Made by a program: the position numbers and the translations under genes. The notes under the pieces were generated by a model. It had not been told where the DNA came from and did not search any database. It saw only the letters and a program-made list of their open reading frames with translations. This document shows, one piece after another, positions 2,342 through 9,413 of a stretch of DNA of 64,000 nt. Positions within the stretch are counted from its first letter, which is position 1. Every line of letters begins with the position of its first letter. This DNA is from Tumebacillus lacus (GTDB lineage Bacteria; Bacillota; Bacilli; Tumebacillales; Tumebacillaceae). The stretch is taken from contig NZ_JAPMLT010000014.1 in assembly GCF_026410385.1 (NCBI RefSeq), forward strand, positions 62,001 through 126,000, read 5' to 3'.

Positions 2342-4006
2342 CTAGTCTACACGCAATACAGCTCCCGTGTTGGCCGAGGTCACCAACTTTGCATAACGCC
2401 CCAGCCAGCCGGATTTGACCTTTTGTTCCGGTTGTTCCCACGCGGCGCGACGCTGTGCCAGCTCCTGCTCGCTCAGTTTCACTTCGATCACGCGCGTCTC
2501 GACATCGATGCTCACCCTGTCCCCGTCGCGCAGCAAGGCTATCGGCCCTCCCGCTGCCGCCTCCGGGGAGATGTGACCGACGGAGATCCCGCGCGATGCG
2601 CCAGAGAAGCGCCCGTCTGTGATCAGCGCCACATCGGCATCCAGCCCCATGCCGGCGATGGCGGCAGTCGGCGCGAGCATCTCCGGCATCCCAGGGCCCC
2701 CTTTCGGTCCTTCGTAGCGGATCACCACCACATCGCCTTTCTGGACACGACCTGCCAAGATGCCGGCCAACGCGTCTTCCTGCGATTCAAACAGGACGCA
2801 AGGGCCTTCGAAGCGAACGACATCGGTCGCGCCGCTTTTGATGATCCCGCCATCGGGCGCGAGGTTGCCTGTCAGAACGCGCAGCCCGCCCTGCTCACTG
2901 TGCGGGTGTTCCAGCGTGCGGATCACCTCCGGATCTTGAATGTCCGCCGCGGCGATGTTTTCACCCAGCGTGTATCCGGTGACTGTCGGCCGGTCGAGAT
3001 GAAGCACGCCAGGTTTCCGGGCCAACTCTTTCAGGATCGCGCTGATGCCGCCTGCCCGATGAATGTCTTCCATATGCCAGTTGGAGGCCGGGCTGACTTT
3101 GCACAGGTGCGGCACGCGGCGCGAGATCTCATCGATGCGCGACATGTCGTACTGGATGCCCGCCTCTTGCGCGATGGCCAGCGTATGCAACACCGTGTTC
3201 GTCGAACCGCCCATCGCCATGTCCAGCGCAAAGGCATCGTCGATCGCCTCACGAGTCACGATGTCACGCGGCTTCAGATCCTGTTCGATCAGCAGTTTCA
3301 ATTTCTCGGCCGCCTGCGCGATCAGCGTCTTGCGCGCCGGATCGGTCGCGAGAATCGAGCCGTTGCCCGGCAGTGCGATGCCCAGCACTTCGCAGAGGCA
3401 GTTCATCGAATTGGCCGTAAACATGCCCGAGCAGGAACCGCAGGAGGGGCAGCCGTGATCCTCGATGTCCTTCAGTTCCTCTTCGGTGATGCGACCCGAC
3501 TGATAGGCGCCGACGCCTTCAAATACAGAGCTGAGGTCGACCACCTGCCCTTTCGACGTCTTCCCGGCCGCCATCGGCCCGCCTGACAGAAAGACGGTCG
3601 GAATGTTGATGCGCATCGCCGCCATCATCATGCCGGGCGTGATCTTGTCACAGTTGGGAATGCAGATCATCCCGTCAAACCAATGGGCGTTGACCACCGT
3701 CTCGACCGAATCGGCGATCAGTTCCCGGCTCGGCAACGAATAGCGCATGCCGATGTGGCCCATCGCGATGCCGTCATCGACACCGATTGTGTTAAATTCG
3801 AACGGAATCATCCCGGCTGCCCGCACCGCTTCCTTGACCAGACGGCCAAATTCGTTCAAATGCATATGACCTGGGATGATCTCGACAAACGAATTGCAGA
3901 TCGCCACAAACGGCTTGTCAAAATCCTCGTCTTTCAGACCGGTTGCCTTCAATAAACTGCGATGCGGCGCTCGGTCGAACCCTTTTTTGATCGTATCGCT
4001 TCTCAT
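2342..4006 (-). CDS. ilvD: Dihydroxy-acid dehydratase
   Basis: Converts 2,3-dihydroxy-isovalerate or -methylvalerate to the 2-keto acid, the third common step of Val/Ile synthesis. The 554 residues match the IlvD/Edd family. Visible motifs are the Fe-S cluster segments [10 protein letters not shown] (about residue 117) and [19 protein letters not shown] (about 186), plus [12 protein letters not shown]-like sequence ([13 protein letters not shown]) and GRFSGASRG near the C-terminus. The start ATG at 4006 has GGAGGGGACA just upstream. It is the last gene of the ilvE-B-N-C-D operon, only 15 bases after ilvC. Confidence 0.97.
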
Positions 4007-4021: not shown

Positions 4022-5008
4022 TTACCGCTCGATCCAACTCATCATCTCGCGCAGGCGTGCCCCCACCGTTTCAATCGGATGATGCGCTTCGGCCTGTTTG
4101 ATCGCGTTGTAGGACGGTCGTCCGGCTTGATTTTCCAAGATCCATTTTTTCGCAAACTCACCGCGCTGGATCTCGGCCAGCACGTGTTGCATCTCCCGTT
4201 TCGTCTCGTCCGTCACGATCCGCGAACCGGTCATATAGTCGCCAAACTCCGCCGTGTCGGAGATCGAGTGCCGCATGCGGGACAATCCCCCCTCATACAT
4301 CAGGTCGACGATCAGTTTCAGCTCATGCAGACATTCAAAGTAGGCGATCTCCGGTCGGTACCCCGCTTCGGTCAACGTCTCAAATCCCGCCTTGACCAAT
4401 GCGGTCACGCCGCCGCACAGCACCGCTTGCTCACCGAACAGATCGGTCTCCGTCTCTTCGCGAAACGTCGTCTCGATCACGCCGGCACGGGTGCAGCCGA
4501 TGCCTTTTGCGTAGGCGAGCGCCAGGTCTTTCGCCCGCCCCGTCGCATCCTGATGCACGGCGACCAATCCGGGCACACCCGCCCCTTGCACATACACCCG
4601 GCGCACCAGATGACCCGGGCTCTTGGGTGCCACCATCGCCACATCGACATCTTCCGGCGGTTGGATCTGCCCGAAGTGGATGTTAAAGCCGTGCGAGAAC
4701 AACAACATCTGGCCTTTGCGCAGATGCGGGGCAACCTCCTCCCGATACGTATGGGCCTGACTCTCATCCGGCAGCAGCATCTGCACCACATCGGCCGCTC
4801 TCGTCGCCTCGGCCACCGTCATGACTTCAAACCCGTCTTGTTCAGCCCGTGTCCACGACTTTCCACGACGGAGTCCAACGACGACGCGGACACCCGCATC
4901 GCGCAGATTTTGCGCTTGCGCATGACCTTGCGATCCATACCCGACCACCGCTACCGTTTTCGCTTGCAACAGCCCGAGATCCGCCTGCTGGTCATAGTAC
5001 ATTTCCAT
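4022..5008 (-). CDS. ilvC: Ketol-acid reductoisomerase (class I)
   Basis: NADPH-dependent isomerisation and reduction of acetolactate or acetohydroxybutyrate. The 328-residue size is that of the short class I enzymes. The Rossmann motif [19 protein letters not shown] lies near residue 21, followed by the cofactor-specificity loop VGLRRGKSW. The C-terminal knotted domain carries the metal-site segments [12 protein letters not shown] and [17 protein letters not shown]. It sits 27 bases downstream of ilvN in the ilv operon. Confidence 0.97.
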
Positions 5009-5035: not shown

Positions 5036-5275
5036 TTAATTCGGAAAATATTCGACCTTGATCACGTCGATCAGCTTGTTCAGTTGTCTGACAAATTGCC
5101 CGCCTGCCCTTTCATCGATCCCGACGACGATGGTCATCTGCGCCATGCCCGGCTCTTCCGGCTTTTGACGGGATGTCAGCGAGACGATGTTGTACCCGCG
5201 CCTGACAAACTGTCCGGTCACCCGCGCCAGAACGCCCGGACGGTCATGGGCGGTGACGAAGATCGATACGCTCAT
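5036..5275 (-). CDS. ilvN: Acetolactate synthase small (regulatory) subunit, short form
   Basis: An ACT-domain regulatory subunit that gives AHAS valine sensitivity. The sequence MSVSIFVTAHDRPGVLARV is the expected ACT start. The ATG at 5275 overlaps the ilvB stop (ATGA), suggesting translational coupling; an in-frame GTG at 5284 is an alternative start. The protein is only about 80 residues, whereas most Firmicute IlvN proteins are about 160-170. It therefore keeps the ACT domain but lacks the second C-terminal domain, resembling IlvM-type short subunits. Confidence 0.9.
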   Translation of the reverse strand: MSVSIFVTAHDRPGVLARVTGQFVRRGYNIVSLTSRQKPEEPGMAQMTIVVGIDERAGGQFVRQLNKLIDVIKVEYFPN

Positions 5276-6987
5276 TCCTCCCACCCCCTCAGCAAGATCT
5301 CATGATTCCCTTTCCCCGGCGGCACCATCGGGAATAAATTCTCTTCTTCCTCGACGAGGAAGTCGACCACCACCGGCCCTGGATGCGCCAACGCTTCGAC
5401 GATCACTTGACGCGCTTCGTCCGGCGTCGTGGCTCGAAGCCCCTTTACCTTGTACGCTTCCGCCACCCGGACAAAATCAGGCGCACCGATCCGCGACTCG
5501 GACAGCCGATTTTCATAGAACATCTTTTGCCATTGGCGCACCATGCCCAAGAAACGGTTGTTGATCACCATCACCTTGACCGGAATGTTTCGTTCGGCGA
5601 CCGTTTGCAATTCCTGAATGTTCATCTGGAACGATGCGTCGCCGGCGATGCAGACCACCGTCGCCTCCGGGACGGCCAGTTGTGCGCCGATCGCAGCCGG
5701 AAACCCAAATCCCATCGTGCCGAGTCCGCCCGAGGTCAGAAACGTGCGCGGTCGTTTGGCGCGGTAAAAATGCGCCGCCCACATCTGATGCTGGCCCACC
5801 TCCGTCGTCACTATCGCCTCCGAGCCGGTCATCTCATTCAGCAGATCGATCACATACTGAGGTTTCAAGCTCGATTCGTCCTGCGAATAGGTCAAAGGAT
5901 GCTCCTGCCCCCACGCCTGTACTTGAGCCAACCAACTCGCGCATGTGCAGGGCGGCGACATCGACCGCAACGCTTGCAACGCCTGTTTGGCATCGGCGAT
6001 GACCGGATAGTCCACCCTCACATTTTTCTCGATCTCAGCGGGATCGATCTCGATGTGCACCTTTTTCGAGTGCGGGGAAAACAGTTCCAGCTTGCCCGTC
6101 ACCCGGTCGTCGAAGCGGACACCGCACGCGATCAGGAGATCGCACTGCTGCACCGCCAGATTGGCCGCATACGTGCCGTGCATCCCGAGCATCCCCAGAA
6201 ACAGCGGATCATCCGGCGGGAAGGCTCCGAGCCCCATCAACGTGGAGACGACCGGAATCCCCGTCTGCCGAGCGAACGCCCGCAGTTCCTCTGATGCTCC
6301 CGCGCTGACAATGCCCCCGCCGATGTAGAGCAACGGACGTTGCGCCTCCGTGATCGCGGCACAGACTCGTTGCAGTTGCAGCGCATCCGGCAGTGTGGGA
6401 GGATGATATCCCGGAATCTCCACTGCCTCCGGGAACACAAAGGGTGCCACTTGGCTCGATACATCCTTGGGGATATCGACCAATACGGGGCCGGGACGTC
6501 CGGTACTCGCGAGATGATACGCTTCGCACAAGACGCGCGGCAGATCTGCCGTCTCTCGCACCTGATAATTGTGTTTGGTGATCGGCATCGTGATCCCGAC
6601 CACATCGGCCTCTTGAAATCCGTCGCGACCGAGCAGCGGAGTGGCTACCTGCCCGGTGATGATCACCAGCGGCGTGGAATCCATAAAGGCATCGGCGATC
6701 CCGGTCACCAGATTGGTCGCGCCAGGTCCTGACGTGGCAAATACGGTCCCTGTGCGTCCGGTCGCCCGCGCATATCCTTCCGCGGCATGGATCGCGCCTT
6801 GCTCATGCCGTGTCAACACATGGTCGATCGAACTGCCGTGCAGCGCATCGTAGATCGGCAAGATCGCCCCGCCCGGATAGCCGAACACCGTCTCGACGCC
6901 CAATCTCTCCATGCATGCGATCACCATCTGCGCTCCTGACATCGTGGTTTGCGCGTGATTTGTGACGTTTGCATTCACAGTCATCAC
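5272..6987 (-). CDS. ilvB: Acetolactate synthase large (catalytic) subunit
   Basis: ThDP-dependent condensation of pyruvate with pyruvate or 2-ketobutyrate, the first step of Val/Leu and second of Ile synthesis. The 571 residues show the full architecture. The N-terminal Pyr domain has the catalytic Glu in RHEQGAIHAAEGYARATG and GYPGGAILPIYD. A middle FAD-type domain follows. The C-terminal PP domain has the ThDP/Mg motif GDASFQMNIQEL...VINN. It lies 18 bases after ilvE and overlaps ilvN by the ATGA junction. Confidence 0.97.
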   Translation of the reverse strand: MMTVNANVTNHAQTTMSGAQMVIACMERLGVETVFGYPGGAILPIYDALHGSSIDHVLTRHEQGAIHAAEGYARATGRTGTVFATSGPGATNLVTGIADAFMDSTPLVIITGQVATPLLGRDGFQEADVVGITMPITKHNYQVRETADLPRVLCEAYHLASTGRPGPVLVDIPKDVSSQVAPFVFPEAVEIPGYHPPTLPDALQLQRVCAAITEAQRPLLYIGGGIVSAGASEELRAFARQTGIPVVSTLMGLGAFPPDDPLFLGMLGMHGTYAANLAVQQCDLLIACGVRFDDRVTGKLELFSPHSKKVHIEIDPAEIEKNVRVDYPVIADAKQALQALRSMSPPCTCASWLAQVQAWGQEHPLTYSQDESSLKPQYVIDLLNEMTGSEAIVTTEVGQHQMWAAHFYRAKRPRTFLTSGGLGTMGFGFPAAIGAQLAVPEATVVCIAGDASFQMNIQELQTVAERNIPVKVMVINNRFLGMVRQWQKMFYENRLSESRIGAPDFVRVAEAYKVKGLRATTPDEARQVIVEALAHPGPVVVDFLVEEEENLFPMVPPGKGNHEILLRGWEE

Positions 6988-7005: not shown

Positions 7006-7905
7006 TCAGATTAATTCAGGAGCCAGCCCCGGCACCTTGACACCGCGCTCTCTCGTCAATTTTCGAAACTCTTCGGTCAGCAGGAGCGTCGTCGCGCCGG
7101 GGGTGCCGTCCCCGATGGTGCGGGAGTCCACGTCGACGACCGCGATCACCTCGGCAGCCGTGCCGGTTAAAAACACCTCGTCGGCCACGTATACATCGTG
7201 GAGCGTAAACGGCTTCTCCTCGCAGGGGATGCCGTGCAGTTCGCACAGCTCCATCACCGCGTTGCGCGTGATCCCTTCGAGCGCGCCCAAGTAGGTCGGC
7301 GGCGTTGTCACTTTTCCGTTTTTGACGAGAAACACGTTGTCGCCCGAACCTTCGCACACATACCCTTCATGGTTGAGCATTAGTGCTTCCAAGACACCAG
7401 CTTGTGCGGCTTCGATCTTGACGAGGATGTTGTTCAGGTAGTTCAAGGACTTGATCTTCGGATTCAGCGCATCCGGCACGTTGCGCCGCGTGGGAACCGT
7501 CACGATCCGCAATCCCCGGTCGTAATTTTCCTGCGGGAACAGTTTTAACTGCTCGGCGATGATGATCACGTTGGCCTGCTTGCAACTTCTCGGGTCCAAG
7601 CCGAGATCGCCGACTCCCCGCGAGACGATGAGCCGGATATACGCATCCGGGTAGCGGTTGACCCGCAGCGTTTCCAAGACGGCCTGTTCCATCTCGTCCG
7701 GTGACATCGGGATCGTCAAGAGGATCGACTTCGCAGACTCATACAGCCGTTTGATGTGCTCGTGCAGGCAAAACACGTTGCCCGCATAGCTGCGAATCCC
7801 CTCAAAGATCCCGTCGCCGTACAGGAACCCGTGGTCATAGACAGACACCACCGCCTTGTGCTTTTCCACAAACTCGCCGTTCAGATAGATCAACTGCTCA
7901 CTCAT
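7006..7905 (-). CDS. ilvE: Branched-chain amino-acid aminotransferase (class IV PLP)
   Basis: Catalyses the final transamination giving Ile, Val and Leu. The 299-residue fold-type IV protein starts MSEQLIYLNGEFV at an ATG preceded by AAGGAGTGGTGGAGA. The frame stays open upstream to 8046, but that part runs through the T-box RNA and is not coding. Motifs: GDGIFEGIRSYAGNVF near residue 30, the PLP lysine in KSLNYLNN around residue 157, and EGSGDNVFLV. It is the first gene of the ilv operon and is controlled by the three upstream T-boxes. Confidence 0.95.
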   Translation of the reverse strand: MSEQLIYLNGEFVEKHKAVVSVYDHGFLYGDGIFEGIRSYAGNVFCLHEHIKRLYESAKSILLTIPMSPDEMEQAVLETLRVNRYPDAYIRLIVSRGVGDLGLDPRSCKQANVIIIAEQLKLFPQENYDRGLRIVTVPTRRNVPDALNPKIKSLNYLNNILVKIEAAQAGVLEALMLNHEGYVCEGSGDNVFLVKNGKVTTPPTYLGALEGITRNAVMELCELHGIPCEEKPFTLHDVYVADEVFLTGTAAEVIAVVDVDSRTIGDGTPGATTLLLTEEFRKLTRERGVKVPGLAPELI

Positions 7906-7949
7906 TCTCCACCACTCCTTGTTTTTTTGTGTTCTTGCAGGGGTCGGGA

Positions 7950-8253
7950 ATAAAAAATTCCCTCGCCCCAGTCTTGGAATCTCTCGTAGGAGAGAATTAT
8001 TCCAAGACTGGGGCGAGGGAATCGCGGTACCACCCAGTTGCTCCATCTTCTCACGAAGATGGACTCTGCGAGTTTTTGAAAAAACTCCGGCCTGATAACG
8101 AAGGCCCTCCGTCGCCCACTACTCGGACGCATCCGCGTCCTTTGGCAGGCAAAGCTCCAAGGTGATTTTCAACGTCGAGATGGTCACCGCCCTCCCAGCC
8201 TAGGGGCAGCTCTCTGACACCAGCGCTCACGTCTACTCTTCCTTTTCTACGCC
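7950..8253 (-). promoter_or_regulatory. T-box leader 3 (gene-proximal), isoleucine-type
   Basis: tRNA-sensing leader of the ilv operon. On the minus strand, stem I begins at about 8253, and the specifier-loop stretch TTGAAAATCACC gives codon ATC (Ile). The T-box core CTGGGTGGTACCGCGA lies at about 8025-8040, its variable base T matching a tRNA discriminator A. A long terminator follows: ATTCCCTCGCCCCAGTCTTG pairs with its complement around a 17-20 nt loop and ends in TTTTTTATT. Uncharged tRNA-Ile should favour antitermination. This terminator differs in sequence and length from those of the two upstream copies. Confidence 0.93.
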
Positions 8254-8269
8254 TTTTATTTGGTTGTCT

Positions 8270-8552
8270 GAAAATAAAAACGCCCCAGTCATCGGAATGC
8301 CGATGACTGGGGCGAGGGGATCGCGGTACCACCCAGTTGCTCCATCTTCTCGCGAACATGGACTCTGTGAGTTTATCAAAAACTCCGGCCTGATAACGAA
8401 GGCCACTCCGTCGCCCACTACTCGAACGCATCCGCGTCCTTTGGTAGGCAAAGCTCCAAGGTGATTTTCAACGTTGAGATGGTCACCGCCCTCCCAGCCT
8501 AGGGGCAGCTCTCTGACACCAGCGCTCACGTCTACTCTTCCTTTTCTACGCC
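8270..8552 (-). promoter_or_regulatory. T-box leader 2 (middle), isoleucine-type
   Basis: Second complete T-box unit, more than 90% identical by eye to leaders 1 and 3. Specifier segment TTGAAAATCACC (ATC, Ile) lies near 8463-8474. The T-box core GGGTGGTACCGCGA is near 8322-8336. The terminator hairpin CGCCCCAGTCATCGG / CCGATGACTGGGGCG is followed by TTTTTATTTT. The copy starts 299 bases upstream of leader 3, so the array has a period of about 300 bases. Confidence 0.93.
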
Positions 8553-8569
8553 TTTTATTTTGTTGTCTG

Positions 8570-8850
8570 AAAATAAAAACGCCCCAGTCATCGATTTTTC
8601 GATGACTGGGGCGAGGGATCGCGGTACCACCCAGTTGTTCCATCTTCTCACGAAGATGGACTCTGCGAGTTTCTCAGAAACTCCGGCCTGTTAACGAAGG
8701 CCACTCCGTCGCCCATTACTCGGACACATCCGCGTCCTTTGGCAGGCAAAGCTCCAAGGTGATTTTCAACATCGAGATGGTCACCGCCCTCCCAGCCTAG
8801 GGGCAGCTCTCTGACACCAGCGCTCACGTCTACTCTTCCTTTTCTACGCC
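8570..8850 (-). promoter_or_regulatory. T-box leader 1 (promoter-proximal), isoleucine-type
   Basis: First transcribed T-box of the tandem array. It has the same stem I sequence as the other two copies: AGAGAGCTGCC distal loop, GGCTGGGAG bulge strand, and specifier ATC in TTGAAAATCACC. The core GGGTGGTACCGCGA is followed by the terminator GCCCCAGTCATCGA / TCGATGACTGGGGC and TTTTTATTTT. The roughly 85 nt of stem I nearest the 5' end look identical in all three copies, which suggests recent duplication or strong constraint. Confidence 0.93.
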
Positions 8851-8905
8851 ACGATATCGAGTGCGATCTGCTCGTTTACAGATCACATCAGGTTTGTTGA
8901 GTTCA

Positions 8906-8934
8906 ATACTAGGCAACTCATAACCGAAAGTCAA
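8906..8934 (-). promoter_or_regulatory. Sigma-A promoter of the ilv operon
   Basis: On the minus strand, -35 TTGACT (8934-8929), a 17-nt spacer and -10 TAGTAT (8911-8906). The start point would fall near 8899, about 50 nt before T-box leader 1, giving an untranslated leader of about 1 kb. Confidence 0.75.
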
Positions 8935-9373
8935 GCCCCTTCGATGAGAATTTTTTTGGTCGGGGTGAATTTTGTATTGGGTACTCCTATTTAACAATAC
9001 GACCAAGAAAGGGAGCGGGGGCTGAGGAATATCATTTAACAGATAAATGCAAACCATACCCTGATAATTGTAGTGTTCTTGTTGTGGAATACTCGAATGA
9101 ATTCACACTTTACTGTAAATGTTTCCGTAACGAATCCTTCCTTTTTTTACTCGTAGGTAATCAAAAATTTGTATGTTAATGAATGACTTGTGCAAAACCC
9201 ACAATGAAAACCGATTGACAAGGGGCTACCTGAAAAAGGTGAACCTCCAGGCTGGGAAGCACAAGGGAGGTCTATTTCTTTTTACATGATCATTCCTTCT
9301 GCCGCATATCTTTCAATTGGAAGGAAATCCTATTCCGACGCACAACTGTAACCCCTTTTTCACAGGATGTTTG
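8935..9373. other. Intergenic region between the divergent ilv operon and SEDS gene
   Basis: No convincing gene is seen in these 440 bases. A weak hairpin (ACCTCC 9243-9248 with GGAGGT 9266-9271, then a T-rich stretch) could be a terminator or remnant RNA, but it matches no RNA family I recognise. The stretch 9058-9200 is AT-rich and featureless. Confidence 0.5.
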
Positions 9374-9379
9374 CTATAA
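9371..9379 (+). promoter_or_regulatory. Extended -10 promoter of the SEDS gene
   Basis: TTTGCTATAAT contains TGN-TATAAT, an extended -10, with no clear -35. It lies about 35 bases before the ATG at 9414, leaving a short leader. Confidence 0.6.
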
Positions 9380-9413
9380 TGGTACGGACTCTATAGAAGT
9401 GAGGAAACGCAGA

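Follow-up and report, generated by a model that had tools for sequence, protein, structure and literature searches.

Contiguous T-boxes are enriched in Bacillota according to PMC12452182, in which triple T-boxes account for 2% of the contiguous cases for ilvB, 3% for ilvN, 1% for trp genes, 6% for glnQ and artP, and 13% for thrS. For ilvE, the entries in Table 2 of that study comprise doubles and T-box/guanidine pairs, with no triple. Serial, pseudo-cooperative action of tandem riboswitches has been described (PMC9481103, with the same expectation in PMC12452182), and a natural triple c-di-GMP riboswitch was reported to be more stringent and digital than the double or single arrangement (PMC4759541). 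The locus analyzed here contains three complete units with three terminators and the same codon upstream of one gene cluster, which is a tandem riboswitch arrangement. As in the contiguous T-boxes of PMC12452182, complete tandem units precede branched-chain amino acid genes; the ilvB triples of that study are compared with this array by gene and share. The array is similar to the triple c-di-GMP riboswitch of PMC4759541 in placing three complete same-ligand switches in series, and differs from it in RNA class and ligand. Compared to the isoleucine (AUC) T-box leader of Rfam family RF00230, all three units show a full-length match, the specifier register, the UGGU bulge, and the antiterminator/terminator pair; a single unit shows no difference, and the number of units alone sets the array apart. 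We did not find this array described in the parts of PMC12452182, PMC7583486, PMC7778990, PMC9481103, and PMC4759541 that were consulted, a set that excludes a supplementary table of individual cases.

The window, i.e., the whole stretch of DNA that was analyzed, comprises 64,000 nt of Tumebacillus lacus (assembly GCF_026410385.1, contig NZ_JAPMLT010000014.1, positions 62,001 to 126,000), and all coordinates are relative to it. The minus strand from 8855 to ~7955 consists of three T-box leaders arranged head to tail (T1, T2, and T3, starting from the 5' end), each matching the full length of RF00230 (model positions 1 to 219 of 219) (Table 1). The common unit starts at positions 8850, 8552, and 8253, corresponding to spacings of 298 and 299 bases. 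The stem I elements, the AUC specifier, the T-box core, the antiterminator, and the terminator are present in T1, T2, and T3 alike, and each copy retains the searched motifs (AGTA, AGAGA, specifier, T-box core, and antiterminator strand) intact. A sequence-only reading of this DNA had proposed three complete T-boxes, head to tail at intervals of 298 to 299 bases, each with an ATC specifier and its own terminator, upstream of ilvE-B-N-C-D. All of these features were borne out, and the span given for them (7950 to 8850) was right within a few bases.

Table 1. Features of the T-box array and of the downstream ilv genes (window coordinates)
Feature	Position	Strand	Evidence or remark
T1, 5'-most T-box leader	8604-8855	minus	RF00230 88.9 bits, E 1.4e-19
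T1 specifier ATC	8763-8761	minus	
T1 T-box bulge TGGT	8629-8626	minus	
T1 terminator	8580-8613	minus	15-pair stem, then TTTTTATTTT; predicted -29.6 kcal/mol
T2, middle T-box leader	8305-8557	minus	RF00230 97.1 bits, E 1.1e-21
T2 specifier ATC	8465-8463	minus	
T2 T-box bulge TGGT	8331-8328	minus	
T2 terminator	8281-8314	minus	15-pair stem, then TTTTTATTTT; predicted -30.7 kcal/mol
T3, gene-proximal T-box leader	8006-8258	minus	RF00230 99.7 bits, E 2.4e-22
T3 specifier ATC	8166-8164	minus	
T3 T-box bulge TGGT	8032-8029	minus	
T3 terminator	7956-8023	minus	Longer stem, then T run; folding -55.4 kcal/mol for 7955-8026
Sigma-70-like promoter candidate TTGACT-17-TAGTAT	8906-8934	minus	Consensus match only; nearer of two upstream of T1
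Second promoter-like site, upstream of T1	9316-9289		Consensus match only
ilvE, branched-chain amino acid aminotransferase	7006-7905	minus	NF009126 573.1 bits, cut-off 518
ilvB, acetolactate synthase large subunit	5272-6987	minus	NF005228 and TIGR00118 above cut-off
ilvN, acetolactate synthase small subunit	5036-5284	minus	TIGR00119 65.9 bits, cut-off 56.9
ilvC, ketol-acid reductoisomerase	4022-5008	minus	TIGR00465 above cut-off
ilvD, dihydroxy-acid dehydratase	2342-4006	minus	TIGR00110 above cut-off

Scanning of the window at the Rfam gathering score for RF00230 (93 bits) retrieved T2 and T3 only, T1 missing the threshold by 4.1 bits. The covariance search proposed in the sequence-only reading thus recovered three complete T-boxes, but the gathering score alone lists two. 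Annotation at the Rfam cut-off can therefore undercount arrays, as for two of the three T-boxes here. The covariance search detected no fourth or degenerate T-box at E ≤ 0.1 in region 7700 to 9400; five other matches at this threshold in the same region were weak, belonged to miRNA/sRNA families, were all located on terminator hairpins, and scored far under the gathering scores. In the alignment to the model, a pair is broken in stem II of T1 and another in stem III of T2, and there is one non-standard stem I pair in each of the three units and one non-standard antiterminator pair in T2 and T3, so that equal strength of the three units is not assured. Two minus-strand reading frames, of 126 aa (8051-8431) and 136 aa (8233-8643), cross the array; these are taken as chance frames through RNA that could be misannotated as hypothetical proteins.

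The five ilv genes are located downstream of the array on the same strand and were identified by NCBIfam matches. The product of ilvN is short, its 82 aa representing about half of the length of the TIGR00119 model (158).

When 30 T-boxes were aligned, the AUC triplets of T1 to T3 lined up in register with that of the ileS leader of the same genome and with those of three ilvA-type leaders from other genomes (the ilvA, pheA, and ileS labels of the aligned leaders having been assigned by eye). A pattern search showed that the genome encodes tRNA-Ile(GAU), and both of the tRNA-Ile(GAU) genes whose sequences were inspected terminate in CCCACCA. With this 3' end, the acceptor ACCA is complementary to the T-box bulge, and A73 is able to pair with the final U of UGGU. 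At the level of sequence, tRNA-Ile(GAU) is thereby confirmed as the predicted specificity shared by all three units. The specifier register comes from the alignment; folding of each unit, which had also been proposed for locating the specifier, gave minimum-energy structures that favored the terminators and lacked the canonical stem I.

A consensus scan detected the terminators of T1 and T2, whereas that of T3, which differs from them by a stem extended at the base and at the top, was missed by the scan and revealed by folding. The scan returned five terminator-like sites versus 1.7 expected, namely, the terminators of T1 and T2, a site farther upstream at 9260, and two short sites lying within T2 and T3. 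The lower terminator stem is identical in T1 and T2, and where the two differ, in the upper stem and the loop, the 15 pairs are preserved. In T1, the 5' arm of the terminator overlaps the 3' strand of the antiterminator, and a CCCAG strand is predicted to be common to the antiterminator and the terminator in each unit. The two structures are thus predicted to be mutually exclusive in all three units, with antiterminator energies of -10.7 to -10.8 kcal/mol. Folding of the entire 993-base leader produced 24 long-range pairs. In region 7800 to 9400, a consensus scan of both strands identified two promoter-like sites, which is near the chance expectation of 1.0 obtained by shuffling, and none between the copies. 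The location of these sites provides weak evidence for a single transcription start upstream of T1.

The copies are 92.9% (T1-T2), 94.8% (T1-T3), and 96.4% (T2-T3) identical, in agreement with the value of more than 90% estimated by eye in the sequence-only reading. That reading had also noted an identical 5' stretch of ~85 nt; such a stretch exists and measures 77 nt of the common unit in all three copies. The 17 variable alignment columns all occur from column 83 on and include private differences in each copy. The probability that none of the 17 would fall in the first 77 nt is 0.0013 if the rate is uniform and 0.0043 if a slower 5' part is allowed for, based on five other T-box pairs that share members. 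As proof of gene conversion, the identical stretch was not retained, these probabilities being suggestive only.

As a same-codon control, we considered 13 tandem T-box pairs from 13 genomes (L176 to L188), which belong to one family (f26) and do not represent 13 independent cases. In each pair, UUC (Phe-type) occupies the same register in the two copies, and the pairs precede genes that by eye resemble those for sodium:neurotransmitter symporters (SNF transporters), one of which was tested. The two copies within a genome are 55 to 72% alike (mean, 60.4%), versus ~81% for copies at the same position in different genomes, and on these values the f26 pairs are old ones that diverged without homogenization. 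General concerted evolution of tandem T-boxes accordingly finds no support in these pairs of a single family, nor in two other same-codon pairs, L174 (57.3%) and L175 (73.3%, with one copy partly masked). The 93 to 96% identity of the present array, compared to 55 to 72% in the control, is indicative of recent amplification, or of conversion specific to this lineage, rather than of routine homogenization. The sequence comparison therefore suggests, as the initial reading had, that the array arose by recent amplification or gene conversion. In a tree, the branch of T3 has a near-zero length, and its extended terminator resembles, by eye, the terminators of the ilvE leaders of two related genomes (G011 and G012). 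Since T1 and T2 share a common terminator and that of T3 is extended as in these relatives, T3 may be the copy closest to the ancestral element.

To place the array among relatives, as the initial reading had recommended, leaders were compared in a sample of the order comprising 14 genomes, including that of T. lacus, with loci reaching 1.5 kb on either side of the gene match. A T-box precedes ilvE or ilvB in 7 of the 13 other genomes (G002 and G007 to G012), each time in a single copy, the specifier being CUC (Leu) in six of them and GUC (Val) in G008 according to the alignment register. In G001 and G003, three ilvE loci were scanned and yielded no T-box at E ≤ 0.1. The four remaining genomes (G004, G005, G006, and G013), in which ilvE-like matches reach 32 to 41% identity only, lie outside the T-box scan. 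In that sample, the isoleucine codon and the triplication thus appear to be confined to T. lacus. A protein search for named relatives led to loci at 49 to 57% identity. In G003, contig C22 carries two ilvE-like genes ~1 kb apart (73178-74059 and 75115-75990), the products of which are 78% and 77% identical to IlvE of the window, with no T-box in the loci.

Within T. lacus, a search with RF00230 at E ≤ 0.001 gave 17 matches, of which the array accounts for three; according to their coordinates, none of the others are contiguous. From the downstream frames inspected by eye, we take these 14 to be the leaders of leuS, ileS, valS, tyrS, hisS, argS, pheS, alaS, glyQ, metG, thrS, serS, a cys gene cluster, and an aminotransferase gene. 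Derivation of the array from the ileS T-box of the same genome was rejected, since the identity (49 to 51%) was no closer than that to the T-boxes of leuS or alaS. T3 shares 63 to 66% identity with the ilvE leaders of G007, G011, and G012, 62 to 66% with two ilvA leaders (51% with a third), and 64.5 to 65% with two pheA leaders, with which the tree groups it at a support of only 0.69. T3 being about equally like the ilvE, ilvA, and pheA leaders of the relatives (62 to 66%), no one of these stands out as the ancestor of the array. Its origin may be either a codon change in place or the replacement of a leader.

In a search by exact pattern, two T-box cores separated by 262 to 292 bases were present in 17 of the 398 genomes of the class, an undercount, since the pattern requires perfect cores and a single spacing range. 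Two of these 17 genomes, that of T. lacus and G115, have three cores in a row. Two isoleucine-type specifier regions at the same spacing were found, again by exact pattern, in only 1 of 398 genomes of the phylum, that of T. lacus. The array of G115 (L189, 1299-2106) is a second same-codon triple located before a Biopterin_H gene (PF00351). It is similar to the present array in having three same-codon T-boxes, a similar spacing, and high copy identity (90.5 to 97.9% over matched units and 89.3 to 96.3% over a shorter stretch), and differs from it by its Tyr-type specifier (UAC), its target gene, and the bacterial family in which it occurs (f21). The view that three same-specificity copies are unusual is upheld by these counts as regards rarity, but triples, including those of ilvB, are already in print. 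Triple T-box arrays are rare and already known. In two other genomes, a Guanidine-I match below the gathering score adjoins a T-box located before ilv genes (L117, 2868-2976, and L025, 1102-1200). These matches may correspond to a ppGpp-type relative. Proximity of a T-box and a guanidine riboswitch is an arrangement reported in PMC12452182.

From the anatomy of the units, the specifier register, the tRNA match, the operon, the copy identities, and the relatives, we infer a response to tRNA, a serial logic, and a history for the array: very probably, three isoleucine T-boxes of the same specificity act in series to attenuate transcription of ilvEBNCD, the array having been amplified recently from one ~298-base unit. 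AUC in stem I would read the anticodon of tRNA-Ile, and UGGU in the antiterminator bulge would read its free 3' end. Uncharged tRNA-Ile would stabilize the antiterminator, and the terminator would form in the presence of charged tRNA. RNA polymerase would have to pass three gates before reaching ilvE, each terminator demanding uncharged tRNA-Ile, so that leak and induced readthrough would both multiply, resulting in a steeper response. As the individual units have the appearance of standard T-boxes, the effects of three in series would be expected to multiply: with illustrative inputs of 5% passage per gate in the uninduced state and 60% in the induced state, three gates would let through 0.0125% and 21.6%, respectively, a 1,728-fold range versus 12-fold for one gate. 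Tandem amplification of one ~298-base unit, possibly combined with gene conversion, would have generated the array recently. The occurrence of promoter-like sites upstream of T1 only, in a number near that expected by chance, is weakly in favor of a single transcript, and serial action is supported by the preservation of the 15 pairs even where the upper stems of the T1 and T2 terminators differ. Serial antitermination, proposed in the initial reading, is also the expectation in the consulted parts of PMC12452182 and PMC9481103, and the behavior reported for the natural triple c-di-GMP riboswitch (PMC4759541) goes the same way.

A single unit, probably T3, might instead perform nearly all of the regulation, with T1 and T2 being products of a recent neutral duplication that are decaying or mainly lower the output. 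The broken pairs of T1 and T2 in stems that are intact in T3, the decrease in RF00230 scores from T3 to T2 to T1, the near-zero branch of T3, and the likeness of its terminator to those of the G011 and G012 ilvE leaders are all compatible with this scenario. We nevertheless consider it unlikely, although deserving of attention, because the searched motifs are intact in all three units and because T1 and T2 have strong terminators in which the loop-side differences keep the pairing. An assembly artefact, affecting either the presence of the third copy or the precise number of copies, is very improbable: a near-identical unit of ~298 bases is a type of repeat that short reads may misplace, but the 17 differing columns with private differences per copy, the distinct T3 terminator, the distinct 5' flank of T1, and the location of the array inside a 129-kb contig argue against it.

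The near identity of the terminator arms also raises the question of whether the gates could interact. The 3' arm of the T1 terminator, once freed, could form 14 perfect pairs with the 5' arm of the T2 terminator, thereby altering the decision at T2; the corresponding number for T2 and T3 is 10. When the T1 antiterminator was imposed on a transcript extending no further than the T2 5' arm, cross-pairing reached a predicted probability of 0.969, that of the T2 antiterminator dropping to 0.0, and forcing of both T1 and T2 led to a value of 0.935 for T2-to-T3 cross-pairing, in a calculation that leaves outside the finished T3 terminator, bound tRNA, kinetics, and tertiary structure. However, once the T2 terminator was fully transcribed, the local hairpin prevailed (0.986 versus 0.0 for cross-pairing), and unforced cross-pairing was 0.0. 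Because cross-pairing is strong only in a constrained, unfinished transcript, lack of independence of the gates is kept as a minority reading that we regard as improbable. The corresponding physical model is, if anything, slightly more doubtful: the RNA arm freed at T1 would bind the antiterminator/terminator strand of the next unit, and T3, partly insulated by its longer private terminator, would give the final decision. Coupling, if true, would represent a real interaction between T-boxes, beyond multiplication. The array of T. lacus is a clean natural case in which to study the benefit of additional T-boxes, as it combines three near-identical isoleucine gates that differ little with the availability of relatives that have one gate and another codon.
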